DNA of 37,417 nt from Planctomycetota bacterium. GTDB taxonomy: Bacteria; Planctomycetota; Planctomycetia; Planctomycetales; Planctomycetaceae. A program made the position numbers and the translations under genes. Under the pieces are notes generated by a model. It made no database searches. It was given only the letters and a program-made list of their open reading frames with translations, and was not told the DNA's origin. This document shows, in pieces, positions 4,994 through 11,047 of this stretch (its first letter is position 1; the number at the start of each line of letters is the position of its first letter). The stretch is taken from NCBI GenBank assembly GCA_027618475.1, contig JAQCEJ010000049.1, positions 1-37,417 on the forward strand. The letters are read 5' to 3'.

Positions 4994-6937
4994 ATGAAGT
5001 TGTTTCAATCTTTGAACGGGAATAATGTGACGCTGGTTTTTAGATTGATGATTGCGTCGCTGATTATTGTAGACGCAATTGTGTCAAATGCACAAGAATC
5101 GACGTTACTGGACGATCACTCGATCATGTTGGCACAGCAGGGAAGAGGTTCGTACCGGGAGCGCCGCAGTAGTTTGGGACGTTTCAATCGGTTCAGACAG
5201 AATTCCTCCTTGAGCATCGATACACCGATGGCGCCGCCGGAGTGGGCACTTCTCGAGCGCGAATTGTTGCGGGCAAATGGCGAAGCATGTCGTGCGTTTT
5301 ACGACAAGTATTTCGACGATCGCGGTTACTTGCTATGCGTCGAGCGCTGGGGGGCCAATGATGGTCCAGACGACGCCATTGAATGTTTGCAAAACTGGCC
5401 GATCTTGTATGCACTGGGGGGGGATGACGACGTCGATGCCATGACGCGTCATGCCTGGGAAGGGCATCTGCGTCAATACACGCTGGCGAAGACGACTGAA
5501 GTACCGATGGCCCGTGACGGGATGTATTTCAAAGAGTTTCCCGTGATGATCGACTGGCTGCATCTCTCGGAGGGGCTGACCGTCTTCAGTTATATGGGAA
5601 TGTCCGACCCCGACGATGACTCCTGGCGTGCGCGGACAAAACGTTATGCGGGCTTCTACACTGGTGAGGATTCCACGGCCCCCAATTACGATCCCAAGAA
5701 CAAGATCATTCGGAGCATGTGGACAGGCAGCAAAGGGCCGTTGCTGCGGCCGGCGACTCCGCTGGATTGGGCCGGTGATCCCATCGATATCGAAGGGCGA
5801 TTCAATCCGCTGCATGGCGAAAAAACGTTCGCGCAGTTTCTCGAACATTATCGCGAATATACCGACGTGGTCGGCGATCATCCTTCCAATCTGCTGGCGA
5901 CATCGCTGGCACTCAACGCCTATATGCTCGATCACGAGCCGAAATACAAAGACTGGATTCTCGAATACGTCGGTGCATGGAACGACCGTATCGCGGCCAA
6001 TCAAAATATCATCCCGTCGAAAGTAGGGCTCGACGGCAAGATCGGAGGCGAATCGGGAAAATGGTACGGCGGCACCTATGGATGGGGCTTTACCGTCACC
6101 GTGCCGCAGGATGGCACGAAAGCACACCGCAACACTGTCGGTATAGGCTTCTTTGGATTCGCTAACGCATACCTGTTGACGAGTGACGATAAGTATCTCG
6201 ACGGATGGCGGCGACAAATTGACGATATCAATAGCCATTTCAAGATGGTTGAGGGACAAAAAATGTACCCTCGGATGTTTGGAGATCGAGGGTGGTATGC
6301 GTATTCGGCGAGCCCCTATCAAACTGGTGCGCTGGAGATTTACTTTCTCACGCAGAATCCTAAAGACAAGGGCAGGGTGCGCAGCCGCGCCTGGCTCGAC
6401 TGGCTTGACGGCAAGAATCCCGACTATCCTGTTCGTGCACTCAAGGGAGACTGGGAAAGAGTTCGGTCGCAGATCGCCCGCATGAACGCCGATCCGACGA
6501 CACCCGACACGAGATTGGCCGACGACCCGATGGTCTTTAACCCGGCGAGCGTCAATTCGCTCGTCGAACTGATGTGGGGTGGAATTCCGGGAACGAAAAA
6601 CTCAATGACTATGCTTGCCGCCGTGCGGTATTTCGATCCCGATGAATTGCGTGCCGGTTTGCCAGACGATGTGGCAGCACTCGTCGAAAAGATTGCGCCT
6701 GAGGGAGTGATCCTCTCGCTGGTCAATCTCGATCCCGTCGCCTCGAAAACCGTCATCGTGCAGGCGGGAGGATACGGCGAACACCAGATCACGACGGCGT
6801 CGATCGGCAATCGGAATGTGAATGTGAACGCGCCGTATGTGACCATCCATCTCGCCCCCGGAGCCGGCAGCAAGGTGAAGATATTGACGAACCGTTTTCG
6901 AAATGCCCCGAGTTTACAGATGCCCTGGAACCGTTGA
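4994..6937 (+). CDS. large secreted protein of unknown function
   Basis: A 647-residue protein with an N-terminal signal or anchor (hydrophobic residues about 13-32, ending SNAQES) and a strong ribosome binding site (GAGGAC, 4985-4990). I do not recognise a named family. The body is rich in Trp, Tyr and Asp with repeated helical segments (residues about 75-480), compatible with an (alpha/alpha) toroid like those of polysaccharide lyases and glycoside hydrolases, then a short beta-rich tail (about 575-630: ILSLVNLDP, TVIVQAGG, VTIHLAPG). This fold assignment is inference only. No sortase or exosortase sorting tail is present at the C-terminus. The exosortase-like gene starts seven bases after its stop, so the two are almost certainly co-transcribed, which may link it to cell-surface glycan or protein processing. 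Confidence 0.85.
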   Translation: MKLFQSLNGNNVTLVFRLMIASLIIVDAIVSNAQESTLLDDHSIMLAQQGRGSYRERRSSLGRFNRFRQNSSLSIDTPMAPPEWALLERELLRANGEACRAFYDKYFDDRGYLLCVERWGANDGPDDAIECLQNWPILYALGGDDDVDAMTRHAWEGHLRQYTLAKTTEVPMARDGMYFKEFPVMIDWLHLSEGLTVFSYMGMSDPDDDSWRARTKRYAGFYTGEDSTAPNYDPKNKIIRSMWTGSKGPLLRPATPLDWAGDPIDIEGRFNPLHGEKTFAQFLEHYREYTDVVGDHPSNLLATSLALNAYMLDHEPKYKDWILEYVGAWNDRIAANQNIIPSKVGLDGKIGGESGKWYGGTYGWGFTVTVPQDGTKAHRNTVGIGFFGFANAYLLTSDDKYLDGWRRQIDDINSHFKMVEGQKMYPRMFGDRGWYAYSASPYQTGALEIYFLTQNPKDKGRVRSRAWLDWLDGKNPDYPVRALKGDWERVRSQIARMNADPTTPDTRLADDPMVFNPASVNSLVELMWGGIPGTKNSMTMLAAVRYFDPDELRAGLPDDVAALVEKIAPEGVILSLVNLDPVASKTVIVQAGGYGEHQITTASIGNRNVNVNAPYVTIHLAPGAGSKVKILTNRFRNAPSLQMPWNR

Positions 6938-6943
6938 TGTGGC

Positions 6944-7918
6944 ATGCGAAGTCACCGTCTAGAACGTCTGCGACGGATACCGTTGATCGTCTTCCCGCTG
7001 ATGCTGTTGGGAGTCGAGATTCTCGGACTGACACCGTTTGTGGAGTTTCGTTCCGGGCCGATGATGTATCTGGCGAACGCCGCATTATTGCAATCGGTGG
7101 TGCTGGGAGTCGTGATTTATCTCACACTGCGTGAGTCGATAACCGACGAAACAGGCTCGATTGAAAATCCACCCGCTATGCCGCCAAGTTACGTGTGGCG
7201 TGGGGCGTTGTGGTCGGTGTTGCACATGCTCCTGTACCTGTTGTGCGTGATGCTCACGATCTGGTGGAACGATGTGTTCCGCGACCACAAGGACGACTGG
7301 TGGAACTGGGGTGTCCCCGCGGCGTGGACCATGCTTGCATTGGGTGTGGCGATGTCGGCATGTCGCATCGTCTTCACCCGCAAGAGGTTCTTCAAGGAAC
7401 TTTACCCACAATGGCCGGCGTTATTACCGGCGGTGGTATGTGTGGGGTTGTACGCCTGTTATTTGTACTATCGCGAGGAAATCTGGCGATACGCCTATCG
7501 GCCGGTGATGTATCTGGCCATGTGGATCATGATGAAGGTCCAGGGGGTGAGCGGATTGGGAATCGCCGCCGATGGCCTGCCGATCTTGGGCAATCAGCAC
7601 GTGCGGTTGAAAGTCACCGCCTACTGCGACGGACTGGAAGCGATCGCCATGTTCTGGCTGTGGTGGGGAGCGATCGCCTTTTATCGCCGCAAGGAAGAAG
7701 GGTTCTTCGGCGGCTGGTTCACGCGGTTGTTCGTCGGAACAATCGCGTTATGGCTGTTGAATACGTTAAGGTTAGACGTGCTGATCTGGCTGGGGCAGTG
7801 GAAAGGAGCCTGGCTCTCCGTCCGCATGGTTCATTCACAATGGTGGGCCATCGGAGCATTGTGTTTATCGGCGTTGGTTTTATTGTGGCTAGGCAGAAGA
7901 CCTGCTGAGTGCCTCTGA
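6944..7918 (+). CDS. exosortase/archaeosortase-like membrane protein
   Basis: A 324-residue polytopic protein with about eight hydrophobic segments. The C-terminal third carries the three conserved positions of the exosortase/archaeosortase superfamily: Cys228 in YCDGLEA, Arg276 in LNTLRLD and His297 in MVHSQWW, each at the edge of a membrane segment. Members of this superfamily cleave a C-terminal sorting signal (such as PEP-CTERM) and transfer the protein to a surface acceptor. The order and context of the Cys, Arg and His agree with the family; the subtype is unknown. It lies directly behind the large secreted protein gene, with no clear ribosome binding site, which suggests translational coupling. 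No protein in the window ends with a PEP-CTERM-like motif plus hydrophobic segment plus basic tail, so its substrates must be elsewhere or use another signal. Confidence 0.8.
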   Translation: MRSHRLERLRRIPLIVFPLMLLGVEILGLTPFVEFRSGPMMYLANAALLQSVVLGVVIYLTLRESITDETGSIENPPAMPPSYVWRGALWSVLHMLLYLLCVMLTIWWNDVFRDHKDDWWNWGVPAAWTMLALGVAMSACRIVFTRKRFFKELYPQWPALLPAVVCVGLYACYLYYREEIWRYAYRPVMYLAMWIMMKVQGVSGLGIAADGLPILGNQHVRLKVTAYCDGLEAIAMFWLWWGAIAFYRRKEEGFFGGWFTRLFVGTIALWLLNTLRLDVLIWLGQWKGAWLSVRMVHSQWWAIGALCLSALVLLWLGRRPAECL

Positions 7919-8047: not shown

Positions 8048-10432
8048 TTACTCACCATAAAACCGCGTCAATTCTTCGTCGACGATCGGCTCGTTCAGCG
8101 AGTCACTATTGAGTTGGGCACGCAAACGGTGTTGTCCTGCTGTCTTGCCTTGGACAACCACACGATAGATGACGCTTTCTCCCGGTTTAAGGGTTGAAAT
8201 GGAATCGAACGAAACGTCGCCCAGACTGCTCGTGTGTTTGCTCGGTCCGCTTGCGGACTGGAAATCGAGACCATTGGGGATCGTGCAACTCAGTACGAGA
8301 TTGCTCGCGGCTTTCGTACCGTCATTTCGGACCTTGATTTCGTACACGGCGTCAGTACCGATTTCAACCGGATCTTCATCCTCGCTCACTTCGAGTACGA
8401 GGTCAACGGCACCGTCGACTTCGGTCTTTGTCGAGGTTGCGAGAGTCGTTCCGCCGTCAGAGACGACGCTGACATCGTGTGTGAATTGACCTGCTTCGAC
8501 AGCCTTGAGGTCGAGCGTCAATTCTCGTGACTGATCGCTGCCGAGTTGACCGACAAACCAGAGAACCGAATTCTCCTTTGAATGGAATTCGCCACCTTGT
8601 CCCGCAGTAACAAATCGGAATCCTCGGGGAATAGCGTAGATCACGCGGATATTGTTGCTTTCGGCCTGACCCGAATTGCTGATGGTGACGGTATAGTGGG
8701 CAGTTCTCTGTAAGTAACGGAAACCTGGTCCTTTTACCACGGCCTCCAAACTGGGAGCACTGACGTCAATCGTCGATTCCGAAGAATCCGTCAGTCCGCC
8801 ATTGGCCTGTGCGACGACTTTTACGAACTGCTTTCCGCCCTGTGTTGCTTCAACCGGAAGTCGGAACTGTCGTGATTCGCCCCCATCCAATGAACCAACT
8901 TCGAGTTTGAACTCGCGTCCTTTTTTGTGCGTCAATCCTTCCGAAAGCGTGCACTCAAGCACAATGTTCTGTGCCACACCCGTACCGGGGTTCGAGACCA
9001 CGACTACTTGTGACGCGGGATCGCCGAGCGCAACTTCACTCGGACCTTTGACAGCGAGTTTCAACATTGGCTCTTCGACCGTCAACGAAGCTTTTGCGAC
9101 ACCGGAAAACCGCACCTGTGCAGAGAGCGGTAACTCTCCTCGTTCATTGGGGATGAGTTCGATCTGGATTTTGTATTCTTTCTGCGTTTCGAGCGTCGGG
9201 ATGACCCATGTCAGATGATCGACTTCCTCGCGGGCAGGCGGTTCAGCTTTCGTCATGCGCACCGTGAGCGGGACATAAACCTCGACGTTCACGTTCTCTA
9301 CGCTGGTGTTACCTGTGTTTTGAACGATCAGTTCAGCGGAACTCGGTTGACCGATATTAACGGTTCCATGTTTAACCCACGTCAGGCTGATTGACGGCGT
9401 AACGACGCTCGATGTCGTCGGTGCCGAGGTAACGGTATGCGTTGACGACGACACTGGCACTGTACGCACTGTTTTTGATGGCAATTGGCTGTTGGAGGGT
9501 TGATTCAAGTTTTCAACCGGTTCCAAAGTCCGCGTTTGGGTTGACGGTTTGATATTACGATTCTGCTGTCGTACGGGAGCAGGTTGACGTTTCGACCCGG
9601 CGGAATCGGACACCCGATTCGAAGGGGTCTCCTCTCGGGGATCGAACAATCCCTGGAGATCGTCATTGTTCGACGAATTGGTTCTTGACCGTTGCTTGTT
9701 TCCGAGCTCGATTTCGATCAGATCCTGCTCATCATCCAATCGAAAGTTGGGGTCGCGATCTTCTGGAGCGCGAGGTACACCGTCGGCGAACGACTCATCG
9801 ATCGGGTCGAACGGTGACAAGGAATCGCCTTCGTCCTCTTCGCGGTCGCTGATTCGTCGAGACGGGTCGTTCAGGTCATTCGGGTCGATCGTCAGATCAG
9901 TTTCGGCATCTTCCTCTTCGGTGCCTTCGATTCCTATTGTCTTTTGTTGCCCTGCATCATCCGACTTCGCCGTTGTTGAGGATTGGTTGGAACTGCTGTA
10001 ACGTGAGCGACGACCGAACAATCCGCCGGTCGGAACGATTTCACCAGCCGCGTGATTCACAGATTGGGGAGAAGCATAATCGTCATCCAACTGGGCCGGT
10101 GCCTCGAATAAGGACGGATCGCCTTCCTCTTCAGGAACCGCACGCAGAATCGCTGAGTCAGTGTTTTTCAACAGGCCTTCGAATTCAACGTCAGCGTCTT
10201 TGAGCGTTGATGAAGACGTCGGATCGATTCGTAGTGGATCGACATCGTCGCCGGTGTCGGCTGCCGATCCGGAGACTCCTTCGTGCCCGCTGTTACTCGC
10301 AAAAAACGATTGATTTTTGACGGACGTCGAACGTTCCGACTTTGGCGATTTCGAGGCGTTGTCGGCGATGGCAACCGTGAAGAGCGCGCCGGACAAGCCT
10401 GTGACGGCGAGATACCAGTAGGTCCGCTTCAT
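8048..10432 (-). CDS. DUF11-repeat surface or secreted protein
   Basis: A 794-residue protein starting MKRTYWYLAVTGLSGALFTVAIADNA, a typical signal peptide. The open frame extends 47 codons further upstream, but that part is not signal-like, and GGGAG stands about ten bases before the chosen ATG. Residues about 30-340 are a low-complexity Ser/Asp/Glu-rich region with many acidic patches, probably disordered. From about residue 345 to the end come four or five immunoglobulin-like DUF11 repeats, visible as recurring 'NTGNTSVENVNVEV', 'NPGTGVAQNIVLEC', 'NSGQAESNNIRVIY' and 'NDGTKAASNLVLSC' strands. Such proteins are usually cell-surface or matrix components; adhesion or structural roles are inferred. 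It is convergent with the exosortase-like gene and has no C-terminal sorting tail. Confidence 0.88.
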   Translation of the reverse strand: MKRTYWYLAVTGLSGALFTVAIADNASKSPKSERSTSVKNQSFFASNSGHEGVSGSAADTGDDVDPLRIDPTSSSTLKDADVEFEGLLKNTDSAILRAVPEEEGDPSLFEAPAQLDDDYASPQSVNHAAGEIVPTGGLFGRRSRYSSSNQSSTTAKSDDAGQQKTIGIEGTEEEDAETDLTIDPNDLNDPSRRISDREEDEGDSLSPFDPIDESFADGVPRAPEDRDPNFRLDDEQDLIEIELGNKQRSRTNSSNNDDLQGLFDPREETPSNRVSDSAGSKRQPAPVRQQNRNIKPSTQTRTLEPVENLNQPSNSQLPSKTVRTVPVSSSTHTVTSAPTTSSVVTPSISLTWVKHGTVNIGQPSSAELIVQNTGNTSVENVNVEVYVPLTVRMTKAEPPAREEVDHLTWVIPTLETQKEYKIQIELIPNERGELPLSAQVRFSGVAKASLTVEEPMLKLAVKGPSEVALGDPASQVVVVSNPGTGVAQNIVLECTLSEGLTHKKGREFKLEVGSLDGGESRQFRLPVEATQGGKQFVKVVAQANGGLTDSSESTIDVSAPSLEAVVKGPGFRYLQRTAHYTVTISNSGQAESNNIRVIYAIPRGFRFVTAGQGGEFHSKENSVLWFVGQLGSDQSRELTLDLKAVEAGQFTHDVSVVSDGGTTLATSTKTEVDGAVDLVLEVSEDEDPVEIGTDAVYEIKVRNDGTKAASNLVLSCTIPNGLDFQSASGPSKHTSSLGDVSFDSISTLKPGESVIYRVVVQGKTAGQHRLRAQLNSDSLNEPIVDEELTRFYGE

Positions 10433-11047
10433 GAACGAAGGCTCCCAAACAAATTGATCTTTATGGCTTGATGGACATGGCGAGACGTTGATTTGCTGAT
10501 TTGTCCCAAGAACGGAGCTAACGCCCGATACTTTTAGACGATTGAATAAGTGAAAAAACCAGCACTCAAACAAAATCGAACGACCTCTAATACTGAATCG
10601 GTTTTAACGGTTATGCGACTTGAAGCACTTTGAGGGATGGTAGCGGATTTAACGTTGAATTCCACACGTCGATTACGTCTCTTGACCGAACGTAATTTCC
10701 TGAGGGACCATTTTTGGGTGAATGGGCATTTTCACAGTCCAAACCGGCAAATGCTGCCGCTGCAATTGCATTTCAATGTCGCATCAGCGAAACTGCCTGC
10801 GCAATGGCGAAGGTAGATTAGGGGAGCCGGTGATGGTGCGTGAAAAACGGTCTGTCGTTGATGATCGTGTGCGAGGGAGGTCGGAATATTTTATTTCAAT
10901 CTCAGCGATACAAACTGCCTGATTGTTTCGGCGATTTCATCGCTGATTTGGTCTCACTATTCAGTCAAAAAGGCTTATCCTCGCCCGTAAAAAACGCTTG
11001 ATTCGCAACCGGTTGTACACACGTGTTATTCATGAAAGAGGATCCAG
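10433..11047. other. intergenic region between divergent genes
   Basis: This 615-base stretch lies between the divergent DUF11 and gamma-glutamyltransferase genes and should contain both promoters. A perfect 7-bp inverted repeat, ATTACGT (10672-10678) and ACGTAAT (10690-10696) with an 11-base spacer, is the only clear structure and could be a hairpin or operator. A plus-strand frame at 10722-10922 (66 codons) is open but looks non-coding. No repeat of the 93-bp family is present. Confidence 0.5.

Follow-up and report, generated by a model that had tools for sequence, protein, structure and literature searches.

An unusual stand-alone exosortase probably serves a classical set of PEP-CTERM proteins in a planctomycete genome

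We identified a divergent exosortase, P0001, in a window of planctomycete DNA (the whole stretch analyzed, 37,417 nucleotides), and we conclude that this unusual enzyme probably serves a classical substrate set. The original prediction had described an exosortase-like protein without a visible substrate. The genome removes this supposed orphan, as it very likely encodes substrates of the classical kind. For the 23 to 26 PEP-CTERM proteins, no candidate other than this one divergent enzyme was found. P0001 is probably the general-purpose PEP-CTERM exosortase of this genome. As judged from sequence, this reading draws together superfamily membership, conserved residues, a repertoire of PEP-CTERM proteins, and the finding of no other exosortase in the assembly.

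The membrane protein had been predicted to carry Cys228, Arg276, and His297, and all three residues were present (in TAYCDGLE, LLNTLRLD, and RMVHSQWW, respectively; Table 1) in a protein with eight hydrophobic segments, as counted with a simple Kyte-Doolittle scan rather than a dedicated predictor. P0001 matched the NCBIfam model TIGR04178 (exo_archaeo) at 9.6e-07 and 29 bits, above the curated cut-off of 23 (32.6 bits in the genome search). No other NCBIfam model matched it at an E value of ≤1, and this included TIGR02602 (EpsH/XrtA type) and TIGR04162 (exosortase E/protease; cut-off, 150 bits); Pfam gave nothing above cut-off. The exosortase/archaeosortase-like character of the protein was thus upheld by the HMM comparison, with no better match to another membrane family, and we place P0001 in this superfamily on the basis of its sequence. 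The protein stops after the exosortase domain and has no fused C-terminal CPBP protease. Because full-length relatives exist, the reading frame is not a chance ORF. An AlphaFold2 model of P0001 alone was poor (pLDDT, 50), and sequence searches of the PDB with P0001 and with its neighbor P0002 gave no match.

TABLE 1 Coordinates of the exosortase gene, its putative active-site codons, and nearby genes in the window
Feature	Position	Strand	Remarks
Secreted protein P0002, 647 aa	4994..6937	+	Ends 6 nt before the exosortase gene, same strand
Exosortase gene, protein P0001	6944..7918	+	ATG-started ORF, 324 aa, intact; stand-alone, XrtE-related
Cys228 codon, proposed nucleophile, in C-D-G-L-E	7625..7627	+	Conserved in every row of A2 (5-row alignment) and A4 (4-row alignment)
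Arg276 codon, in N-x-x-R	7769..7771	+	Invariant in A2 and A4
His297 codon	7832..7834	+	Invariant in A2 and A4; Trp301 replaces the Gly usually found four residues later
DUF11 and CARDB repeat protein, no C-terminal anchor	8048-10573	-	Downstream of the exosortase gene, opposite strand

The EpsH family was described in 2006 with six perfectly conserved residues, arranged as Cys-x-Gly, Asn-x-x-Arg, and His-x-x-x-Gly, of which Cys, Arg, and His were proposed to be catalytic in EpsH/exosortase (PMC1569441). As defined in the same source, an EpsH/exosortase also has no fewer than eight membrane helices, matches TIGR02602, and occurs in a genome that encodes PEP-CTERM proteins (PMC1569441). P0001 keeps five of the six residues: CDG and NTLR are present, and H-S-Q-W-W is without the final Gly. 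Its three stand-alone relatives, which share 24 to 28% identity with it in A4, all lack the Gly of Cys-x-Gly (P0008 of G595, CAE; P0011 of G726, CSE; the G791 protein, CAE). P0008 and the G791 protein are also without the Gly of His-x-x-x-Gly, the Cys-x-Gly glycine being the only loss in P0011. Thus, none of the four branch members has all six residues together. All four retain Cys, Asn, Arg, and His and share a Glu four residues past the Cys (A4); this Glu was also present in 14 of the 18 rows of XrtE-like fusions. The original prediction depended on Cys, Arg, and His being conserved in close homologs, and they were invariant in the relatives aligned (A2 and A4). By these alignments, the predicted catalytic set is conserved across the branch and the glycines are not. 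With Cys, Asn, Arg, and His retained and the "invariant" glycines of the 2006 EpsH alignment lost, the branch helps to define the real active site.

Relatives of this kind were rare. In a single-sequence search of 170 genomes of the same family, no full-length relative of P0001 was found; besides itself, P0001 had three matches below 0.001, all of them partial and to longer exosortase proteins. The search of 392 genomes of the phylum matched 3, including its own, and the two other matches were again partial and to longer proteins, which proved to be exosortase E/protease (TIGR04162, 185 and 202 bits; cut-off, 150). Among 397 genomes of the class, 8 were matched, including its own, and two of these encoded full-length relatives without extra domains (G595, 31% identity; G726, 29%). 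No relatives were found in plasmids, in viral contigs, or in the named genome collection. We built a profile (A3) from P0001 and the G595 and G726 proteins and ran it on 392 genomes of the class at 1e-8. The 21 genomes matched were those of the three profile members, G791, and 17 with longer open frames (435 to 685 aa; 3e-16 or weaker). The G791 protein (4e-42) is the fourth stand-alone member of the branch. The four members come from three families of one class (f1, f107 twice, and f116, by genome code), and their open frames span 326 to 375 aa versus 435 to 685 aa for the XrtE-like fusions. We detected a CPBP-type protease motif in 17 distinct fusions (18 rows, as one gene appears twice), and 13 of these fusions belong to the 17 longer matches of A3.

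In a tree of exosortase domains with 50 rows, the four stand-alone members grouped together (support, 86/82), and the 22 rows made up of these and the 18 XrtE-like fusions were split from the XrtA/EpsH type and XrtU at 100/100. The P0001 branch is long, at 2.4 changes per column, and therefore its exact position is less sure than the split on the XrtE side. Profile-profile alignment with hhalign agreed, with a probability of 98.8% over 298 columns against five XrtE-like proteins and of 3.2% against five XrtA/EpsH-type proteins. The motif filter used for the tree missed 4 of 22 XrtE-like, 2 of 33 XrtA/EpsH-type, and 1 of 4 XrtU loci; one row that was mis-cut and five that were near-identical were then left out of the tree. 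Labels were checked with NCBIfam for the XrtE rows L033 and L034 (L034 lies outside the tree), the XrtU proteins, and the five XrtA/EpsH-type proteins, and those of the remaining rows rest on length, motif, and TIGR04178; none of the four branch members passed a specific NCBIfam model. Taken together, the sequence comparisons place P0001 in a rare stand-alone branch that is related to XrtE and is without the fused protease. No description of this branch was found in the listed titles and abstract openings of the papers searched on exosortases/archaeosortases, exosortase E/VPEID-CTERM, and planctomycete exosortases/PEP-CTERM.

Compared with the known types, P0001 is nearest to XrtE (TIGR04162), as indicated by sequence, by the tree, and by the profile match, and the Glu past the Cys is common to the branch and most fusions. 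However, XrtE has a fused CPBP/CAAX-type protease, which P0001 does not, and the tails in the P0001 genome are PEP-CTERM rather than the VPEID-CTERM of the model's name. P0001 resembles EpsH/XrtA (TIGR02602) in its eight hydrophobic segments, its Cys...Asn-x-x-Arg...His order, and the PEP-CTERM proteins in its genome, but it differs in having no TIGR02602 match, no His-x-x-x-Gly, and no exopolysaccharide genes recognized among the 20 window proteins scanned. Exosortase U (NF033780) is another planctomycete exosortase, found in four genomes of the same family; it has a long C-terminal domain, which P0001 lacks, and its three rows lie on the opposite side of the tree.

The P0001 genome also encodes a stand-alone TIGR03008 (pepcterm_CAAX) protease on contig C50 (L219:2457-3290), which scored 117 bits against a cut-off of 81 and has no linkage to the exosortase. 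Stand-alone copies were also present in G726 and G655, and none above cut-off was found in G595 or G791. A split XrtE, made up of P0001 and the TIGR03008 protease, was unsupported: the three stand-alone copies formed their own clade at 100/100, and one of them occurs beside a fused XrtE in the same genome. The grouping of the fused XrtE proteases as one clade had a support of only 55/42.

The first reading of the DNA had seen no PEP-CTERM-like C terminus in the window, and this was confirmed for ORFs of at least 60 aa: none carried [VTILF]-P-[ED]-P-[ASTG] in the last 50 residues. Three C termini in the window, those of a thioesterase, of P0001, and of an ORF of 60 aa, passed a loose helix-plus-basic-tail test, and none was PEP-CTERM-like. 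No substrate was seen at first because none lies in the window; the likely targets are dispersed across other parts of the genome. On the whole genome, TIGR02595 (PEP_CTERM) gave 26 matches at an E value of ≤10 (best, 5e-7), and all 23 of the matches listed exceeded the 16-bit cut-off. We read the tails of these 23, and every one had the classical layout, in which V/I-PEP is joined by a hydrophobic segment and a cluster of basic residues; by a crude test, 21 of the 23 proteins also had a hydrophobic N terminus. Two genomes of the same family without a TIGR04178 match at 0.001 (G078 and G085) had 3 and 1 PEP-CTERM matches, with 0 above cut-off. Eight of the tails were near-identical, e.g., VPEPSTIALLLTGGVGLIGYGWRRKKKLAV, and sat on bodies without mutual matches; among the bodies of all 23, a single further pair matched at 1e-4. 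Near-identical tails on nonmatching bodies suggest an active tag that may have spread recently within the genome. The eight lie on contigs C215, C149, C72, C29, and C14 (L200-L203, L206), with three on C149 and two on C29.

An undescribed sorting signal had been offered as one explanation for the apparent lack of substrates. We scanned for proteins with a hydrophobic N terminus, no internal helix, a C-terminal helix, and a basic tail, without reference to any motif, in 40 stretches of the P0001 genome, which span 780,014 bases when overlaps are counted (∼13% of the genome) and hold 588 gene models. Eight tripartite proteins were found and seven carried PEP, a frequency that is biased upwards because 7 of the 8 contigs were already known for PEP-CTERM matches. 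The eighth protein (L265:1500-2342) had no recognizable motif. The scan recovered 7 of the 8 PEP-CTERM genes in its stretches, missing one on C182. With seven of eight tripartite C termini in 0.78 Mb being PEP-CTERM and no second tail class, we rejected the undescribed signal.

P0001 was the only match to TIGR04178 in the genome at an E value of ≤10. The assembly consists of 218 contigs, and its completeness is estimated at 100%. In five relatives, the best-scoring exosortase of each genome reached 7.7e-21 to 5.9e-17 against TIGR04178, so strongly that a second such enzyme would not have been overlooked here unless it lies in an assembly gap, as the 218 contigs would allow. We assign the 23 to 26 PEP-CTERM proteins to P0001 because it is the only candidate found. 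Organisms in which one exosortase accompanies a dispersed PEP-CTERM repertoire are known: in Nostoc punctiforme, 35 PEP-CTERM proteins occur with only one putative exosortase, and deletion of the exosortase led to fewer PEP-CTERM proteins in the exoproteome (PMC12188702).

PEP-CTERM proteins occur beside several exosortase types. Genomes with one XrtA/EpsH-type exosortase only (TIGR02602 over cut-off; G183, G004, G120, and G186) had 33, 11, 30, and 46 PEP-CTERM matches, and those with an XrtU-type exosortase only (G061, G169, G060, and G010) had 17, 5, 6, and 4. Matches were fewer in the XrtU-only than in the XrtA/EpsH-only genomes of the same family, in a small hand-picked sample with no XrtE among them. 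G595, G726, and G791 had 29, 30, and 68 PEP-CTERM matches, respectively, and each of the three has a second exosortase (those of G595 and G726 pass TIGR02602); the branch thus need not be the PEP-CTERM enzyme there and could have another role. The other three branch members (loci L120, L121, and L147) had no PEP-CTERM-type gene next to them, and among five XrtE-like loci (L122-L125 and L148), one had a PEP-CTERM gene within a few kilobases. At this locus, L148 of G655 (1617-2756 and 5314-6990), a gene with a PEP-CTERM-like tail lies ∼2.6 kb from the XrtE/protease fusion gene with other ORFs between, and a gene further upstream (329-1594) has a tail of similar type in which SEP takes the place of PEP.

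From the enzyme and the tails, we infer how P0001 could act on the PEP-CTERM proteins, including its chemistry and its acceptor. The secreted PEP-CTERM proteins, which have a signal at the N terminus and a tail made up of V/I-PEP, a short helix in the membrane, and an Arg/Lys cluster, would cross the inner membrane and stay anchored through the tail. Bound to the PEP motif on the outer face, P0001 would attack the chain at this motif through Cys228, helped by Arg276 and His297, and release the tail. The enzyme would then hand the protein to an acceptor, leading to release or attachment outside. For archaeosortase ArtA, a model that its own authors present as speculative has the active-site cysteine hold the new C terminus before lipid transfer (PMC7157517). 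A bolder version is rather unlikely: P0001 may represent a distinct, undescribed branch that has lost the Gly of Cys-x-Gly and/or His-x-x-x-Gly and fixed the Glu (C-x-x-[LM]-E), with an altered active-site geometry or choice of acceptor, and that alone can run full PEP-CTERM sorting outside an exopolysaccharide locus.

P0001 had been predicted to be coupled to a large secreted protein of unknown family, P0002. Their adjacency stood, with the two genes separated by a 6-nt gap, but the link was not conserved: an exosortase profile search found none at 65 other loci of the P0002 family. These loci represent 60 distinct places (L045-L047 rest on weak partial matches), with flanks of 1.5 to 8 kb, some cut by contig ends, and the genome sets searched may overlap. 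Neither NCBIfam nor Pfam had a model matching P0002 at an E value of ≤1, in keeping with the predicted lack of a named family; the family itself is widespread in several phyla, with members in 12 other genomes among 392 of the phylum and at 46 loci in named genomes (Caulobacter, Caldilineaceae, and Opitutaceae among them). Matches to most relatives start near residue 70, past the signal-like N terminus. P0002 has a hydrophobic N terminus and no C-terminal anchor, and its C terminus is conserved across the family without a helix or a basic tail. It is therefore probably not a dedicated substrate of P0001. An AlphaFold2 model from 16 sequences (pLDDT, 79.5; pTM, 0.82) gave as its best Foldseek match a GH127 arabinofuranosidase (2.5e-5; TM, 0.32), followed by sugar epimerases and a GH76 mannanase. 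TM-scores by query were 0.20 to 0.33 across the 21 matches at 0.001 or better, and these low scores make assignment to an (alpha/alpha) toroid a fold-level lead only. Perhaps P0002 is a glycan-active enzyme of this fold.

A dedicated one-substrate system, in which P0001 processes P0002, had been the other explanation proposed. The shared strand and the 6-nt gap are what would be expected of it; the CTERM-unlike P0002 C terminus, the absence of an exosortase from all 65 other loci of the P0002 family, and the different neighbors of the P0001 relatives leave it next to no probability. Another alternative is that P0001 is a secondary, specialized enzyme with an unseen target, as the branch may be in G595, G726, and G791, and that the PEP-CTERM proteins depend on a different exosortase that the assembly lacks. 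Three of the four branch members do coexist with another exosortase, the active-site motifs of the branch are altered, and an assembly in 218 contigs leaves room for a gap. Against this, the genome is estimated to be complete, no other TIGR04178 match appeared even at an E value of ≤10, and the motif-blind scan of ∼13% of the genome yielded no second tail class. We therefore regard a secondary enzyme as unlikely.

It is also conceivable that P0001 is an inactive or repurposed exosortase-like protein whose target would be, for example, a lipid or exopolysaccharide and not a protein. This would fit the loss of the canonical glycines and the long branch. However, Cys, Asn, Arg, and His are kept in all four members although the other three share only 24 to 28% identity with P0001, the P0001 ORF is intact, and PEP-CTERM tails conserved so sharply would need a processing enzyme, so that we consider a loss or change of function very unlikely. 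The reading that we prefer remains that of P0001 as the processor of the PEP-CTERM proteins of this genome.

Conservation of the gene neighborhood was raised in the original prediction as a check; the other three branch members have neighbors different from those of P0001. The G791 member has an FtsH gene upstream (TIGR01241); the G595 member also has an FtsH gene upstream, recognized by eye, with a small gene in between; and the G726 member has unrelated neighbor genes. No exopolysaccharide genes were recognized among the 20 proteins of the window that were scanned. In both f107 genomes, the gene for the FtsH-type protease (L120:853-2781 and L147:7359-9455) precedes that of the exosortase and shares its strand.
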